Shown: positions 18,946 through 26,220 of the stretch, in pieces
How the letters are laid out: every line of letters starts with the position of its first letter
Numbering within the stretch: position 1 is the stretch's first letter
DNA from: Methanobacteriota archaeon
GTDB taxonomy: Archaea > Thermoplasmatota > Poseidoniia > Poseidoniales > Poseidoniaceae
Reading direction: 5' to 3'
NCBI GenBank assembly: GCA_002698145.1
Contig: NZVG01000052.1
Coordinates: forward strand, 39,115 to 80,292
Length of the DNA stretch: 41,178 nt
Made by a program: the position numbers and the translations under genes
Notes under the pieces: model-generated
Seen by the model: the letters and a program-made list of their open reading frames with translations, nothing else
The model's database searches: none
Told to the model about the DNA's origin: nothing

Positions 18946-19022
18946 AACAACCACTATGAATTTCCCACCAAGAGGGGGTTTATGAGGCTAATGGAGTCTT
19001 CCGTTCATTGAAATTGACCGGC

Positions 19023-19766
19023 TTATTGCGGTTTTCTTCCACGAAATCGACTTGACATCAGAAGTGGATAGAGCAGACGACCCGAGACTTCTTCGAATCC
19101 GACGTCCTTCATCAAGTTTCGATAATATTTGTTTGTGCCATAATATGTGTAAGAACGAGCGAGACCTTTCCACGGATGATCTTTTGTCTTTGTCACCCAT
19201 CTCGCCATCCATTGGACGACTGTACTCATCCACATTCGCCCAGCGAGTCCGTGCAAGTAGTTCGCTTTCCCGGCATCACAAATGACCAATTGCCCACCTG
19301 GTTTGAGAACGCGATAGATTTCTTCCAACCCTTTTTTCTTGTCCTGAAAGTCTCGGAAAGAAAACAGACAGAAGACCATGTCGAACGTATTGTCTTCCAA
19401 CGGAATGTCTTCTGCAAGTGCCTGAACATAGGCTGCTGGAGGTTCTCCACGGCTTGCCCGAGCCCCATCGACCCTCTTTTTGGCCACTTTAAGCATTGCC
19501 TCAGAGGGGTCAAGACAGGTGACGTCAAGCCCAACAAGGTCTTCTGCAAAACTTCCAGGGCCGCAGCCGACCTCGAGAACTTTCATGCCCTTTGTAGCGT
19601 GATTTCGCACATTCCGTCGCCACCGTTTGTCTTGCCCGAAGGTCATCAACCGATTTACACGGTCATAGTTTGGAATGGTCGCTTCAAGTTGCTCTTCAAG
19701 TTCCGTCCAAGCTTCCAGGTCGATACCCGATGGGTCGTATCCACCGGTAGCGGCACGCTTCGACAT
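19023..19766 (-). CDS. UbiE/MenG-like SAM-dependent methyltransferase
   Basis: Class I methyltransferase of 247 residues. SAM motif I is VLEVGCGPGSFAEDL (about residues 62-76), and motif II/III includes an acidic strand end (CLDPSEAML). The segment FSFRDFQDKKKGLEEIYRVLKPGG (about 132-155) resembles the 'gLRNvtD...al.E..RVLkPGG' hallmark of quinone C-methyltransferases. The C-terminal Tyr-rich region also resembles UbiE. A role in menaquinone or another isoprenoid-quinone pathway is possible but not shown; no quinone genes are nearby. It follows the third KaiC-like gene by 55 bases on the same strand, so it may be the last gene of that cluster. A weak Gly-rich Shine-Dalgarno precedes the ATG. 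Confidence 0.8.
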   Translation of the reverse strand: MSKRAATGGYDPSGIDLEAWTELEEQLEATIPNYDRVNRLMTFGQDKRWRRNVRNHATKGMKVLEVGCGPGSFAEDLVGLDVTCLDPSEAMLKVAKKRVDGARASRGEPPAAYVQALAEDIPLEDNTFDMVFCLFSFRDFQDKKKGLEEIYRVLKPGGQLVICDAGKANYLHGLAGRMWMSTVVQWMARWVTKTKDHPWKGLARSYTYYGTNKYYRNLMKDVGFEEVSGRLLYPLLMSSRFRGRKPQ

Positions 19767-19821
19767 GGTTTACCCGCCACATCCGCACTCTTTGGAGGTG
19801 TCGCTTTGTCCACGATTGCAG

Positions 19822-20625
19822 TCAAGCGATACGCTCGACGGTTTCTGGCGTAATTCCTTCTTCTGGAGTAACTCGGAAAACAAGCATCTTCAGATTCTCT
19901 GGTGCATTTCGAAATTTCGATACGATCATTGAGGTTTCAAAATCTGAACCAATGGTCCGAACGCCAAAGGTCAGAACCATGTCAGCAATGCTTGAAAGTT
20001 CTTGACGAACTGATGGAGATAGACCGTTTACGGAGACCATGATAAGAAGAAGGCCACGGTACATCTGTGTATGCGCTTGAAGCATACGAATCATCGCTAC
20101 TACTCGGCCAGGGTCGTCACGTTGAAGGAAGAAATCGAGGCTGTCAATACCCGCTCTAAAGTAGGGCCCAAGCGCCATGATTTCATTGGTAACTTCGGTC
20201 AAGTAGTCTTGCGTCGAATCATCCACGAAACGAGTTTGTGCAAGACGTTGAATGTCTTCGAGTCGAAAGCCCTCCAAGCGATATCGGCTCGCAAGAAGTT
20301 CTCGCTCAAGGACGTTTGCGTTGTACTCTTCACCGATGGTTCGAACGCTGATGTCGAGTGGCCAGTTGTATTTTTTGAACACACGAACAATTTCAGGTTG
20401 CGCTTCGTTGGTCGAAATGTAAAGTGTATTTTCGGATTCTTCGGCCGGAGAAATGAACTGTTTTGCAAACAACTCTGCTCCGGAACCTGTCTCGGTGAAG
20501 GCAACCATTGTGAATCCGCGAGGGACACCCCCGTGCATTTCGTTGTCGAACTTCGGTACACCAAAGGACCCCACTTGTCCGAAGAAATCCTCGTCTTCTT
20601 TGTCGAATGTGATGTTCTTTCGCAT
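19822..20625 (-). CDS. KaiC/RecA-like protein with degenerate P-loop (third of trio)
   Basis: A 267-residue protein with the KaiC-type N-terminal layout: a Phe-Gly-x-Pro/‘GGVPRG’ loop near residues 21-37, then a strand leading into TETGSGAELFAKQF (44-57). The Walker A Lys and Ser/Thr are replaced (GSGAEL in place of GxGKT), so ATP binding is doubtful. A later strand ending in a Ser-x-Asp step (AGIDSLDFFLQRDDPGRV, about 158-175) matches the Walker B region of KaiC-like proteins. The Shine-Dalgarno GAGGAGGT is strong and ends six bases before the ATG. It lies 12 bases after the second trio member. The conserved overall fold with lost catalytic residues suggests a structural or regulatory partner. 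Confidence 0.75.
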   Translation of the reverse strand: MRKNITFDKEDEDFFGQVGSFGVPKFDNEMHGGVPRGFTMVAFTETGSGAELFAKQFISPAEESENTLYISTNEAQPEIVRVFKKYNWPLDISVRTIGEEYNANVLERELLASRYRLEGFRLEDIQRLAQTRFVDDSTQDYLTEVTNEIMALGPYFRAGIDSLDFFLQRDDPGRVVAMIRMLQAHTQMYRGLLLIMVSVNGLSPSVRQELSSIADMVLTFGVRTIGSDFETSMIVSKFRNAPENLKMLVFRVTPEEGITPETVERIA

Positions 20626-20637
20626 ACTTCAACCTCC

Positions 20638-21222
20638 TCAGTGAATAACCACCTGGCCACGATCGACCAAATCTGTACAATACAGATCAAGATTTGAGAG
20701 AACCAGAGGTGGTGTCTGGTCAGGTACGTTGAGTATGACGGAGAGAACCTCGCGCTGACGGAAGGTATTGATGAATGTGTGAAGATATTCAGCGAGCATT
20801 CGATCTTCGTTGTAGATTGCGAGGGCATTTACGCTGTCCATAAAGACAAAATTACGCTGCGTTTGGGTGGTTCGCAAAATGTACAATGTTCGTAGGAGTA
20901 CCGATTCGAGCATAATTGGGCTATCGACGAAGTGGATGTTTGGATAGGTTACATCTGTACCTCCGAGAATGCCCGAGGAGACCAGATCAATGAATTGGAT
21001 GTTTGATACATCAACGCCAATCGATTCGAACGCCTGAATAATTTCGACTGCGCCTCTGCTTGCTGAAATGTATACGCCACCCATTTCGAACATCTGCATG
21101 AGCGGTAGCATGGTGCTTGCAGTTACCATGAAGGCATTCGAATTACCGCATCGAACCTGAACTGAACTGTTGAGTGAAATGGTTGAGAGTTGCTCAGCAA
21201 TGCGCTGGTCCAATTCAAACAT
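20638..21222 (-). CDS. KaiC/RecA-like protein lacking a P-loop (second of trio)
   Basis: Short protein of 194 residues from the ATG at 21222, preferred because GGGGTG lies seven bases upstream; an earlier ATG at 21237 overlaps the preceding gene. It has the α/β strand pattern of archaeal Rad55/KaiC-like P-loop proteins: a GGVYISASRG strand-turn (about 49-58), an Ile-Gln-Phe-Ile-Asp strand, and a NFVFMDSVNALAIYNEDRM segment (about 123-141) equivalent to the Walker B 'DSLs.L' region. The first strand leads into TASTMLP with no Gly-Lys-Thr loop, so nucleotide hydrolysis is not expected. It is separated from the first trio gene by two bases. Function unknown. Confidence 0.7.
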   Translation of the reverse strand: MFELDQRIAEQLSTISLNSSVQVRCGNSNAFMVTASTMLPLMQMFEMGGVYISASRGAVEIIQAFESIGVDVSNIQFIDLVSSGILGGTDVTYPNIHFVDSPIMLESVLLRTLYILRTTQTQRNFVFMDSVNALAIYNEDRMLAEYLHTFINTFRQREVLSVILNVPDQTPPLVLSNLDLYCTDLVDRGQVVIH

Positions 21223-21224
21223 CT

Positions 21225-22007
21225 TCAAGCACCCCACTTGGTTGTTTTATCGCTTTGCGCACCCCACTTGAGCATGGGCGTAAGCATGACACCAAGAGGC
21301 GTTAATTCAATCGCATGCTTAGCTCGACTATGTGCTGTACCACGCATTTTCACAACCTGCAAAAATCGGAGAAGGTGCCCCATTCGCTCGACGTCACCCA
21401 AGACAACGATGCCATCGGCAATCGCTTCCTCAACACCGAAAGAGGACCAGAGAGCATTCTCGCTCGCCGAGGTAATTTCTGAGATGAGAATCGTCGTGCA
21501 CCCGAGCGTTGCAAGTTTCTTCCCCAGCGTAAAGAGGAAATCTCGAATCAACTGTTCGGACTTGATCTTGTAACACAAGGTCGTGACAGAATCAATGACC
21601 AAGCGAGTAACCCCAATGGTGTTGACGATGTCGGTGATGGACTTGATTAAAGCATGAACATCGTCCAAGTCGAAGGTTGATTTATCCAAGCCAAGCCAAG
21701 AATAGAGAACGTCCATGTCAAAGACGTTGATTAGCCCAGTATCGACCATGTTCATGTCAAAAAAGGCGTATTGACGGATGTTTTCGAGCAACTTGACGGA
21801 GGGTTCAGTAGCAGTAAAGTGTGCACAGGCCTCTCCTGCGAGGGCACCGCGAACGAGGAATTCCATACCGAGTGTTGTCTTCCCAGAACCGCAGGTTCCT
21901 GATGCCAAAACAGTTGAGCCGTATGGTATGCCACCTCGAAGGATTTCGTCAAGACCGTGAATGCCGGTAACACAACGGTCGCGGGAATATGTCGATGCGG
22001 CTTGCAC
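21225..22007 (-). CDS. KaiC/RecA-like ATPase with intact P-loop (first of trio)
   Basis: A 260-residue single-domain KaiC-family ATPase. It opens with 'TGIHGLDEILRGGIPYGSTV', the family entry motif. Walker A GTCGSGKTT follows at residues 37-45, a Glu-containing strand FTATEPS near 63-69, and Walker B RLVIDSVTTL near 135-144. The start is a GTG at 22007 with no clear Shine-Dalgarno. The C-terminus holds a short internal duplication (KWGA ... KWGA) encoded by two 12-base copies of the same sequence at 21229-21240 and 21258-21269. It is the only trio member likely to bind ATP. It is related in fold to ArlH/FlaH and Rad55-like proteins, but no archaellum motor genes are present. Confidence 0.85.
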   Translation of the reverse strand: MQAASTYSRDRCVTGIHGLDEILRGGIPYGSTVLASGTCGSGKTTLGMEFLVRGALAGEACAHFTATEPSVKLLENIRQYAFFDMNMVDTGLINVFDMDVLYSWLGLDKSTFDLDDVHALIKSITDIVNTIGVTRLVIDSVTTLCYKIKSEQLIRDFLFTLGKKLATLGCTTILISEITSASENALWSSFGVEEAIADGIVVLGDVERMGHLLRFLQVVKMRGTAHSRAKHAIELTPLGVMLTPMLKWGAQSDKTTKWGA

Positions 22008-22036
22008 GGCTATCGCTTATCCCACTTCAACCGAGT

Positions 22037-23143
22037 TCATGAAGCATTTGATGGTTCCAAGAAGACATCCCCAGGCGTCGAGTTGGATTGAACGGACCAT
22101 GAAGAGGATGACATTGTGCTTCCACCCTCCCACACAATGACTTGATTGAGATTCATCAGAAGCCCAGTTTTGCCGCCCCATTCTGCTTTCGAATAGGTGA
22201 CTGGGTTAATTTGGCCAGGCCGAGTAAATCGTAACTCAACGGTTCCAGCACCGTCGTCAAGTAGGTTCATCGACCCTGTTCCAAGCAATCCGTATTGACC
22301 CAAATCGAACATCTGTGAGGCATTGCCCTGTTCTTGAGTGGTCAACGACCCTGTGAAGAGAGCGACAGATTGACCACTGATAACGCCCTGCTGAAGCAAG
22401 ACCTCGTTTGATGTTGAGCCGGAAGAGGTATTGAATGACCACCCATAGAGGCTTGTCGCAAAGGCATTGTCGTTGTAGACTTCAATCCATTCAGGGCCTC
22501 CACTGATCGGTCTTGCCATCACCTCGGTGAGAATTAAGTTTTCATTCCCACGGTTGGCGTCATGAACCTCAAGTGTGATCAAAATCAACTCGCTTCCAGC
22601 TCGGACCGTGCTTGAGGCTGTCGATGCCATCCGGGCTGAATTTAGATCTGCCCCCCCCTCGAACAAATTCAAACCGATGCGTGACTCGTCGTGTGATGCA
22701 TGTATGGAGATGCGTAAAAACGCCGTTAAGTCCTCGTCCAATCCTAAACCTTGTGAAAAACTTGCAAGCGTAACATTGGACAGGGCAGAAACTCGTTCCA
22801 TATCGAGCTGGTTGTTTTCCATCAGTCCAGTCTGAACACGACCCTTCTCCAAAGCACTAGCGGATTGGACGTGCCAATCCTTTGTTGAGTTAGCGTGGTC
22901 AAAACCCTCTCCTCCATCGCTTGGTACAAACCAGCCAGAACTGCTCGTGAGTCGATCAAGACCGGAAACAACTGCTTGATCAACCTGGTCAATCTCTGTG
23001 TCGTTGGAACCCATCTCAAGTTGAGCCAGCGACATGAAGGCCGTGAGAATCATCAAAAAGAGCGTAAACGCAGAGAGGAATTCAATAACGGCTGTAAGAG
23101 CACGCTCATCGTTGCGCAATCGCGTCCAATCAGCCTCCTCCAT
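22037..23143 (-). CDS. Membrane-anchored lamin-tail-domain (LTD) protein
   Basis: From the ATG at 23143 this is 368 residues. A short basic/acidic N-terminus (ending RNDER) leads into one hydrophobic helix (about 17-43, starting ALTAVIEFLSAFTLF), in the manner of archaeal pilin-like or single-anchor secreted proteins. The middle is polar. The C-terminal 165 residues match a lamin-tail domain: LILTEVMARPISGGPEWIEV near 202, LYGWSF, then an Asn-Leu-Asp-Asp-Gly-x-Gly strand and a final 'NSTPGDVF'. LTDs occur in secreted prokaryotic proteins and are thought to bind surfaces or ligands. Another ATG at 23170 would add nine residues; the longer frame upstream overlaps the divergent gene and is not supported. 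It is followed after 29 bases by the KaiC-like trio. Confidence 0.75.
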   Translation of the reverse strand: MEEADWTRLRNDERALTAVIEFLSAFTLFLMILTAFMSLAQLEMGSNDTEIDQVDQAVVSGLDRLTSSSGWFVPSDGGEGFDHANSTKDWHVQSASALEKGRVQTGLMENNQLDMERVSALSNVTLASFSQGLGLDEDLTAFLRISIHASHDESRIGLNLFEGGADLNSARMASTASSTVRAGSELILITLEVHDANRGNENLILTEVMARPISGGPEWIEVYNDNAFATSLYGWSFNTSSGSTSNEVLLQQGVISGQSVALFTGSLTTQEQGNASQMFDLGQYGLLGTGSMNLLDDGAGTVELRFTRPGQINPVTYSKAEWGGKTGLLMNLNQVIVWEGGSTMSSSSWSVQSNSTPGDVFLEPSNAS

Positions 23144-23280
23144 GCGACGAACGACGACAAGGGATGTCATGAACGTTGCCAAACAAATGGTGGTTTCTAA
23201 TCGATTGGTTTTGGTGTGATTCATGCGATGAGTCTTTGAATCATCCATGCGACCATTGTACGATGACAGGAGCGGAGCCA

Positions 23281-26220
23281 ATGGCTGTTGCGAACAAAAA
23301 AACCAGCCTAAGTCTGGTTTCATTGATGATGCTATCGCTCTTTTCAGCCCTGTTGACCGCCCCGGCTGCATCCGCAATAGAGCAGGTCGATCTTGCTGTC
23401 GTTTCGGGAGCGAGTCCCGTCGAAGACAGGTTTTACGCTGCCTTCGATCCAATCACATTTTCTGCCGAAGTTGAAAACCAAGCCCTCAGCCCTCAATCTT
23501 CAACACGTACACTGGAATGGTACGTTTGCCAAGGAATGAAAACAGCAACTCAGTGCATCTCCAACGACGTTGCAAGTGGTCAAATCGGTGTCAATGGCCT
23601 TTTGGTTGGAGATGTCGGAACCTTCAGTGACGCAACACCTTGGTTCCCATCTGGCTCAACCGGGACATTTACCGTCGTGTTCAAGTTTACCTATGCCGAC
23701 GTCGATGCAAGCGATGATGTTCGGTCTTACAACATCAATTTGACCGCAGAATACAGCGACGTCTCAATCGAACCAGGTCAAGACCCACGAGATACGATAT
23801 CTGGCTTGCACACCTACGACGGTGAGTTTGTGCTGAACACAGAGCAAGATTATGTCATGAGCGTTTCTGGAACGTCGCATACATGTGGTCAATGTGGATT
23901 GATTGCTTACATGGGATGGAACCTGAGAGAACTTGATGGAACAATCGTTGCTACTGAAAATCAAAGCGTTACTACGCTGCCCTCGGGAGGATACGAACAG
24001 GCCTTCACAACATCTCTACCAGCACTCAATTATTCCGTGCCTGGTCGATACATCTTTGAATTTGGACTCATCGATAGTTCAAGCAATTACGCTGGAGATC
24101 TCAACGATTACAACGACCTCGCTCAAGTTGAAATCGTCCTTGACAACACGCTTGACCTGAGAATAGCGAGTATGTATCCTTCGCACGACCCAACATCCCC
24201 GAATTACTACTACGGCGAAAACATGCTTTCTGTCGATGTTGAGAATATTGGGAACTTTACTGTTGAAAACATACAGATCACATTCGAAATGTTTGATGCT
24301 TTTGGTGAATCCGAGCATCTTGACCAATGCACCGTCGACCGACTCGGACCCGGTGAAGGATCGACATGTATGTACAACCTCACAAAAGTCGGAGAAGGCA
24401 AAGAACTTCGAATATACATGCCAACCGCATTCGACGGTCGTCTCGATACGGGTCCATCCGATAACACACTCATCGAGTTCACGTCGGTTCTCGCAGGCGA
24501 AATCCTTCCAATCATTTCCATGAACTCAGTGTCAGGAACATACACAACCGCAGACACCATTGAGTTGACTGCGATTACCAACAGCGTGGCTGCTGCTCCG
24601 CTTAACTACACGTGGGTATTGGATACTGTCATTCAACTCGGAACAGGAAAATCAATCTCTGTAGACGCATCCACCTTCCCGCTGAAAGGATATGACATCG
24701 GTCTGTACGTTGAGGATGCGCTTGGATTTACTGCTGAAACACATGCGACAATCTCCATCATTGACGAAGTGCTCATCCAAGAGCAACCATTGATGACCGG
24801 CTCTGCTGTTTCGTTAAACAAAGCTCAGTTTATCTACGATGTTTTGCTACCAATTGAAGGATTTGAATACAATATTGCAGGCGGAAAAGAGCCGCTCATG
24901 ATCATGGATTTCAAGGTCATGGAACTTGAAAATGATTTGCAACCTGCGCAATTGCAATCATTGAATCTTGACATTCACCTCACGAATCTTCTGCCTGAAT
25001 CGATACCTCACGACTCTGTGGAATTCCTCGAATTAACGTCGTTGGATGATACCTATTGGGACTACCTTGAATCCCCGGATTTCTACAGCTATGACGGTCT
25101 GCAAAACATTTCATTGAACCTGAACTCAAACACCATTGTCTTGGTGATTGGTTCGCTGCCTCAACCGAATGTTTCTCTGGAGAATCTTTCGCACAACAAA
25201 TTGGTTGGCGGAGCCATCGAACTGACGTGGAGCGCTGCAGGAGATGTCGCAAACCCTTACTTCGGTGGCTGGCAAGTTTACAGATTAACCGTCGACGAGT
25301 CCGTCGGTACAATCTTCCCTGATCCAGAAGTTGAGACAAATGCAAACCTCTGGAACGTGCTGTTGGCAGACAGTGCCGTTGAGTTGGTTGAAACGGAATC
25401 CAGTGGATGGTTGGACCCAATTGCACTGGAAACAGGTACGTGCGCGTCGTATGCAGTCCTACCCACAAATCGAGCCGGGGTACCGGACCTGTCACGAATC
25501 AATGTCGTCATGGGCGAATCGGGCAATTCAAGGCTCTGTGGTGATGCGGTACCACCTTCGAGTGTTGTATCCTCGTTCAGTTACACATACCGATTTACAA
25601 ATTCATCCGAATGCTATGACATGCAACAGAATTGGAATGCTTGTTACGAACTCAACATGACATGGACATGGCCTGCAAATGAAGCAGATGGAGGCGTAAC
25701 ATGGAATATCTACCGAATGGAAGTCCAGCCGAGCAATGTTGACTTGAAGTTCGCCACACCTCTAGCAACTGGCCTTACTGGAGCGCAAGGTGAACAGGGC
25801 TCATTCAATCAATCAGGACTTGAATCAGATGGTATTCGCCCTCTTCGCACATACTACTACGTGCTTGCACCGATTGATTCCAAAGGAAACGAGAAAACCC
25901 TCGGTCTTTCGAGCCAGAATGTGTTGCGAGTCAACATGGCCGATCAGTGGTGGGATTATAACCAACATCTGATTCCAGAGGAGCCTGCTCCTCCAGAACC
26001 CCCGTTCGGTGTTTCATGGTTCCAAGATGTGCTTGACTATACCGAAGTCGGAGAATTCCAAACTGCCGGACTTGCTGTCATTGTTCTGGTCGTTCTGAAT
26101 GCCTTGTTCATTCCGATTACAATCAAGCGCCGTTCTCGATTAAAGCGAGTAATTGCTGCCCGGAAGCGTAATCAAACGACGTTGAACATGGCGGATGACT
26201 TCGAAGATTTCTTCGAATGA
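23281..26220 (+). CDS. Large secreted protein with C-terminal membrane anchor
   Basis: Extracellular protein of about 979 residues, not recognised as a named family. A signal peptide is clear: KK then a hydrophobic core ending AAPASA-like before IEQVDL (cleavage near residue 30). The body is β-rich with many Asn-x-Ser/Thr sequons. Segments around 310-370 resemble CARDB or Ig-like modules (LSVDVENIGNFTVENIQITF). Two segments around 640 and 800 resemble fibronectin-III strands (IELTWSAAG...WQVYRL; WTWPANEADGGVTWNIYR). A Pro-rich linker (EEPAPPEPP) precedes a single membrane helix, then a basic, acidic-ended cytosolic tail. The start at 23281 is preferred because GGAG lies eight bases upstream; an ATG at 23263 is possible. 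It is divergent from the LTD-KaiC cluster. Confidence 0.75.
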   Translation: MAVANKKTSLSLVSLMMLSLFSALLTAPAASAIEQVDLAVVSGASPVEDRFYAAFDPITFSAEVENQALSPQSSTRTLEWYVCQGMKTATQCISNDVASGQIGVNGLLVGDVGTFSDATPWFPSGSTGTFTVVFKFTYADVDASDDVRSYNINLTAEYSDVSIEPGQDPRDTISGLHTYDGEFVLNTEQDYVMSVSGTSHTCGQCGLIAYMGWNLRELDGTIVATENQSVTTLPSGGYEQAFTTSLPALNYSVPGRYIFEFGLIDSSSNYAGDLNDYNDLAQVEIVLDNTLDLRIASMYPSHDPTSPNYYYGENMLSVDVENIGNFTVENIQITFEMFDAFGESEHLDQCTVDRLGPGEGSTCMYNLTKVGEGKELRIYMPTAFDGRLDTGPSDNTLIEFTSVLAGEILPIISMNSVSGTYTTADTIELTAITNSVAAAPLNYTWVLDTVIQLGTGKSISVDASTFPLKGYDIGLYVEDALGFTAETHATISIIDEVLIQEQPLMTGSAVSLNKAQFIYDVLLPIEGFEYNIAGGKEPLMIMDFKVMELENDLQPAQLQSLNLDIHLTNLLPESIPHDSVEFLELTSLDDTYWDYLESPDFYSYDGLQNISLNLNSNTIVLVIGSLPQPNVSLENLSHNKLVGGAIELTWSAAGDVANPYFGGWQVYRLTVDESVGTIFPDPEVETNANLWNVLLADSAVELVETESSGWLDPIALETGTCASYAVLPTNRAGVPDLSRINVVMGESGNSRLCGDAVPPSSVVSSFSYTYRFTNSSECYDMQQNWNACYELNMTWTWPANEADGGVTWNIYRMEVQPSNVDLKFATPLATGLTGAQGEQGSFNQSGLESDGIRPLRTYYYVLAPIDSKGNEKTLGLSSQNVLRVNMADQWWDYNQHLIPEEPAPPEPPFGVSWFQDVLDYTEVGEFQTAGLAVIVLVVLNALFIPITIKRRSRLKRVIAARKRNQTTLNMADDFEDFFE

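Follow-up and report, generated by a model that had tools for sequence, protein, structure and literature searches.

A stretch of 41,178 nucleotides from a Poseidoniaceae archaeon (contig NZVG01000052.1, positions 39,115 to 80,292; hereafter the window) carries three consecutive genes for KaiC-family proteins, which we call K1, K2 and K3. The host genome is 2.09 Mb in size and 83.5% complete, and the closest named relatives of its K2 protein (98–100% identity) come from metagenome-assembled genomes of Ca. Poseidoniaceae, one of which carries the label MGIIa-L2, which puts the host in Marine Group II. The trio spans positions 22007 to 19822 on the minus strand with intergenic gaps of 2 nt (K1–K2) and 12 nt (K2–K3), in agreement with an initial annotation made from the sequence alone. 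The gene order on this strand is lamin-tail domain (LTD) protein, K1, K2, K3 and a methyltransferase, followed by a V/A-ATPase operon starting at 18954. The initial annotation had also described strong Shine-Dalgarno sites, which holds for K3 (GGAGG) and not for K2, where the site is weaker; none is obvious before K1. A scan for promoters and terminators relied on bacterial-type patterns, gave results near chance and carries no weight here. The three genes and their key motifs are:

21225..22007, minus strand: K1, GTG start, 260 aa, single-domain KaiC-family ATPase, the sole bearer of a Walker A motif in the trio
21873..21899, minus strand: Walker A motif of K1, GTCGSGKTT (G40, G42, K43, T44 and T45 invariant)
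21336..21350, minus strand: predicted trans-acting finger of K1, KMRGT, aligned with K-x-R-G of KaiC CI
20638..21222, minus strand: K2, ATG start, 194 aa, predicted KaiC-fold pseudo-ATPase lacking both a P-loop and the C-terminal K-x-R finger strand
19822..20625, minus strand: K3, 267 aa, predicted KaiC/ArlH-like pseudo-ATPase
20470..20493, minus strand: dead Walker A motif of K3, ETGSGAEL, with an acidic residue at the Thr/Ser position
19906..19920, minus strand: finger of K3, SKFRN (K-x-R-N), aligned with the KaiC finger

K1 matches the KaiC family PF06745 strongly (E-value 2.5e-52; 178 bits against a curated cut-off of 26.6), and the K1 family profile aligns with the CI domain of KaiC over its full length (7.5e-60). 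A Walker A motif (GxxxxGK[ST]) is present in 71 of 72 K1 orthologues, and the Walker B motif reads R-L-V-I-D-S. Judged by these motifs, K1 is the sole subunit of the trio able to bind and hydrolyse ATP. The host genome encodes a further KaiC paralogue (L086:6824-7543) with an odd Walker A motif, GASGAMKSS.

The other two proteins are altered in different ways. None of 79 K2 orthologues contains a Walker A motif, and in the phylum-wide alignment K2 stops short of the finger strand. K3 has no complete Walker A motif, and position 51, which corresponds to the Walker A Thr/Ser, is Glu or Asp in 60 of 62 orthologues; Lys is present at position 50 in 12 of the 62, all from Marine Group III (MGIII), and the Walker A Lys is also found in a K3 from a different family outside this set (L235). 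The K3 finger, K-x-[RK]-N, is retained in 61 of 62 orthologues, and Glu74, which aligns beside the catalytic glutamates of KaiC, in all 62. K3 is thus, by its motifs, a protein unable to coordinate Mg-ATP that nevertheless retains a K-x-R finger. The sequences bear out the initial annotation on the P-loop itself, which is intact in K1, missing in K2 and reads GSGAEL in K3. The uniformity with which catalytic parts have been lost and retained across orthologues argues for an ancient division of labour among predicted subunits rather than decay.

Several lines of evidence assign the KaiC fold to K2 and K3. K3 matches PF06745 above its cut-off (2.3e-15, 57 bits); K2 itself falls below it (4e-5, 23.5 bits), and 20 of 20 K2 relatives match the family. 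Comparison of phylum-wide alignments with hhalign joined K3 to K1 (7e-16), K2 to K3 (4.7e-6) and K2 to K1 (2.5e-5); with narrow alignments limited to the class Poseidoniia, profile comparison did not link K2 to K1 or K3. An AlphaFold model of K2 (predicted local distance difference test (pLDDT) score 64, predicted template modelling score 0.67) had as its top Foldseek matches the archaeal KaiC-like structures 2zts and 2dr3, with probability 1.0, E-values of about 1e-4 and template modelling scores of 0.5–0.6. The K3 model, built from a shallow alignment, reached a pLDDT of only 48, and its fold matches were KaiC and FlaH; our conclusions on K3 rest on its sequence and not on this low-confidence model. 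From these profiles and models we conclude that both proteins have the KaiC fold, and the unrelated folds that the initial annotation had raised as a possible outcome were not found. Variants of both proteins occur elsewhere: one family (f16; L220, L221) has tandem or extra K2 copies beside further KaiC genes, and in two others (f8 and f18; L232, L233, L234) a K3 with a long N-terminal extension lies, with no trio, beside a Lys-rich coiled-coil membrane protein.

To describe the distribution of the trio we read families f1, f2 and f3 of the class as Poseidoniaceae, Thalassarchaeaceae and MGIII, the second and third names being our presumption. K3 is present in 125 of 195 Poseidoniia genomes. 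The order LTD–K1–K2–K3 is retained in Poseidoniaceae and in four Thalassarchaeaceae genera (g14, g16, g18 and g21), and MGIII retains K1–K2–K3 without an adjoining LTD gene. Across the phylum Thermoplasmatota, the K2 profile matches 157 of 293 sampled genomes and the K3 profile 132; in 60 of the 64 genomes outside the class that have both, K3 lies no more than 1.5 kb downstream of K2 in the same orientation, and K1 lies directly upstream of K2 in most loci read. Conservation this far outside the genus indicates that the arrangement is not due to chance, and a check of gene order in relatives, which the initial annotation had proposed, thus finds the trio staying together. Separate trees of K1, K2 and K3 each recover Marine Group II (MGII) and MGIII as clades (the two are joined only in the K1 tree), and the pairwise distance matrices of the three proteins are correlated (0.82–0.96), both of which are consistent with vertical inheritance of the trio. 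Synteny and motif counts together agree with the earlier proposal that one ATPase and two non-catalytic KaiC-fold partners are encoded as a unit.

It could be argued that K2 and K3 work alone, perhaps as scaffolds that bind no nucleotide, and that operon inertia accounts for their co-location, as the families with K3 only or with K1 and K2 only would allow. We think this improbable, since phylum-wide adjacency is hard to account for without a joint function. Moreover, the K1 finger Arg is missing in 5 of 13 loci without K3 and in none of the K3-bearing loci with a valid reading, a comparison in which loci are phylogenetically non-independent, some K3-less loci end at contig edges, and one motif match (L208) is false. 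In loci L194, L199, L201 and L202, which contain K1, K2 and a pilin gene without K3, the finger Arg is replaced to give KMK, KMS or KMA, and this change may be a consequence of losing K3 as a partner.

The genes flanking the trio in the window are:

22037..23143, minus strand: LTD protein, pilin-like, combining an N-terminus of class III type with a lamin-tail head
23024..23110, minus strand: prepilin-like stretch at the N-terminus of the LTD protein, DERA followed by LTAVIEFLSAFTLFLMILTAFMSLA
23263..26220, plus strand: large surface protein with a signal peptide and a C-terminal transmembrane helix, divergent from the LTD gene
19023..19766, minus strand: UbiE/MenG-like methyltransferase (PF01209, 1.1e-31), a neighbour judged to lie outside the system

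The LTD gene does lie upstream of the trio on the same strand, as first annotated; its product had been described as anchored by a single helix, and its N-terminus is instead pilin-like rather than a plain anchor. In 17 of 17 orthologues, Ala or Gly at position −1 comes after an acidic stretch and precedes a hydrophobic residue and the pattern x-A-V-[IV]-E-F-L-x-A-F-x-L-F-L, which fits the archaeal class III (prepilin) signal of a charged upstream segment, Ala or Gly before a hydrophobic +1 residue and a 20-residue helix; all 17 also carry the lamin-tail head (PF00932). The protein resembles archaeal type IV pilins (PF07790 and DUF7289 type) in having Ala or Gly after an acidic stretch and before a hydrophobic helix, and differs from them in the Glu at +6 and the lamin-tail head; it has no match to PF07790 (Pilin_N). 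MGIII orthologues keep the same type of N-terminus (for example KDENA followed by VTHVIEF), and in a distant family (f20; L191, L192) K1 is preceded by the gene for a related LTD protein whose N-terminus is similar. As for a PibD/ArlK-type peptidase that might cleave this signal, the host genome has a PF06847-like gene that scores just below the cut-off (27.9 versus 29.9 bits), and there was no match to PF01478. In one MGIII locus (L245:3641-7089) the class III LTD gene and an ABC-2-like permease gene overlap (6094 versus 6097), with an ABC ATPase gene ahead of the permease gene, and L242 has the same order.

Within the class, the presence of the LTD protein tracks that of the trio: it occurs in all or nearly all Poseidoniaceae, in the same four Thalassarchaeaceae genera (a pattern that perhaps reflects few gain or loss events) and in MGIII, where the genes are unlinked. 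Pilin_N genes adjoin the trio or K1–K2 in several families, and a pilin-like pattern was found in 7 of 31 adjacent same-strand genes versus 6 of 322 other open reading frames (Fisher p = 2e-5; lineages are not independent). Gene linkage and phyletic pattern thus favour the signalling or surface link suggested at the outset. The large surface protein has no Pfam match and is conserved beside the LTD gene in most Poseidoniaceae and Thalassarchaeaceae loci. The methyltransferase, in contrast to the expectation of a conserved five-gene system, adjoins the trio only in part of Poseidoniaceae, and not in Thalassarchaeaceae, MGIII or nearly all distant loci; we rejected a system including it and the V-ATPase because this adjacency is so confined. 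A 141-aa soluble protein (L062:4206-4631 and others), encoded directly upstream of K1 in MGIII and with no confident Pfam match, was likewise rejected as a general fourth subunit, being present only in MGIII.

KaiC and ArlH act as rings, and in KaiC each subunit contributes residues that reach the ATP of the one next to it. That the trio has stayed together over long evolution, often near pilin-like proteins, suggests that it probably forms one mixed-subunit switch controlling part of the cell surface. Specifically, our preferred reading, which we regard as an even bet, is that K1, K2 and K3 form a KaiC hetero-oligomer of one ATPase and two pseudo-ATPases, and that this complex acts on a pilin-like surface system as a switch for signalling or assembly. 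The three would assemble into a RecA-type ring or stack of mixed subunits; a K1 or K3 finger would complete the ATP sites of K1 in trans, and K2 would cap, order or dock the assembly. With K1 as the only source of ATP sites, the number of working sites in a mixed ring would be small and fixed, which suits a switch better than a motor. The ATP state or autophosphorylation of K1 would act as the switch. Input would come from sensory or receiver proteins (MetOD1-like, REC) in the loci that have them, and the output might be a change in how a pilin-like surface structure is assembled, anchored or expressed; in Poseidoniales this structure is presumably the adjoining class III LTD protein. A more specific version, about which we are more doubtful, holds that the trio is an ancestral Thermoplasmatota KaiC machine with the ATP site on K1, the trans finger alone on K3 and neither part on K2, and that this machine is an ATP-driven switch dedicated to a lamin-tail, pilin-like surface appendage.

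A precedent is ArlH, whose hexamers bind ArlI and disassemble upon autophosphorylation (PMC8978795), and it is by analogy with these properties that we infer assembly or anchoring of a pilin-like protein as the output. In addition, KaiC families have been noted near type IV pilus loci, and KaiC has been proposed as a regulator of these pili (PMC4858521). Like the trio proteins, ArlH (FlaH) has a single-domain KaiC/RecA fold and is encoded with a pilin-type surface system; it forms rings, and it is the curated family closest to K3. ArlH binds ATP, however, whereas K3 lacks a functional Walker A motif, and the ArlH gene shares archaellum operons with those of ArlI and ArlJ, whereas the trio lies outside such operons. 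The trio would act in the manner of ArlH–ArlI or of KaiC hubs, but is neither ArlH nor a clock.

A closer tie to the archaellum, in which K3 stands in for ArlH and the trio drives a type IV pilus ATPase, seems to us unlikely. ArlH is indeed the best NCBIfam match of K3, FlaH is among the fold matches, and the host genome has several T2SSE ATPases. However, K3 scores 49 bits and K1 35 bits against an ArlH cut-off of 215, the host has a separate ArlH in its archaellum operon (L082), and the phyletic patterns do not agree: no archaellin was found in MGIII and g16, which have the trio, and the reverse holds for g13 and g20. The separate ArlH and this mismatch led us to reject the trio as an archaellum accessory. 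A circadian KaiABC-like system was also rejected, as none of 99 class genomes contained a KaiB above the cut-off. K1 shares Walker A, Walker B and the K-x-R-G finger with the CI domain of cyanobacterial KaiC, which differs in its tandem CI–CII architecture; the trio proteins are single-domain (194–267 aa), include two pseudo-subunits and have no KaiB above that cut-off.

A more serious alternative, though one we consider rather less probable than an even bet, is that the trio is a general KaiC signalling hub with transcriptional or metabolic output, for which pilin and LTD proteins are one target among many. A role as signalling hubs has been proposed for KaiC-family proteins in archaea (as cited within PMC5847659), and inactivated KaiC domains have been named iKaiC (PMC5847659). 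These archaeal hubs resemble the trio in pairing active KaiC-like ATPases with inactivated homologues in signalling contexts; the trio differs in being a fixed, ordered, phylum-wide unit of one active and two differently inactivated paralogues. Signal transduction is also suggested by inserted genes. Two families (f13 and f20) encode between K2 and K3 a protein with MetOD1 (PF18546), a proposed signalling output domain (PMC5847659), which at L192:6560-7675 and L189:3751-4875 is a double-domain MetOD1/ATC-hydrolase-like protein; in f16 (L229–L231) a shorter look-alike, recognised by eye, occupies this place, with ATC_hydrolase (0.12) as its only Pfam match. Locus L236:5941-9906 has no K2 and comprises a DUF7289-type pilin-like gene that overlaps the K1 start, K1, a REC gene on the opposite strand, and K3. 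Against a general hub stand the recurrence of pilin-type genes beside the trio in several families and the tracking of trio presence by the LTD pilin even where the two are unlinked.

Several observations weigh against a switch dedicated to a pilin-like surface system. Trio neighbours differ widely between lineages while the trio stays, as a general hub would have it, and in one family (f24) they are metabolic genes. Among the genes beside the trio, none was recognised as encoding a secretion ATPase or TadC. The MGIII LTD gene, for its part, comes after a pair of ABC-2-like transporter genes (identified by eye) and has no pilus genes beside it. The incomplete sets of some families and the poor K3 model count on the same side.

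A literature search, which did not cover the main 2017 KaiC survey (Makarova et al.), found no published description of the trio. A central part in archaeal signalling is attributed to KaiC-like proteins, almost none of which has a known partner set; CirA, a KaiC homologue of Haloferax, reportedly affects motility and cell shape. A trio fixed across a phylum names such partners beforehand and shows which catalytic part each has kept, and its distribution offers relatives that may be culturable. It would also connect pilin-type surface proteins other than those of the archaellum with a KaiC module, in archaea that are abundant in the ocean and have little-studied surface structures.

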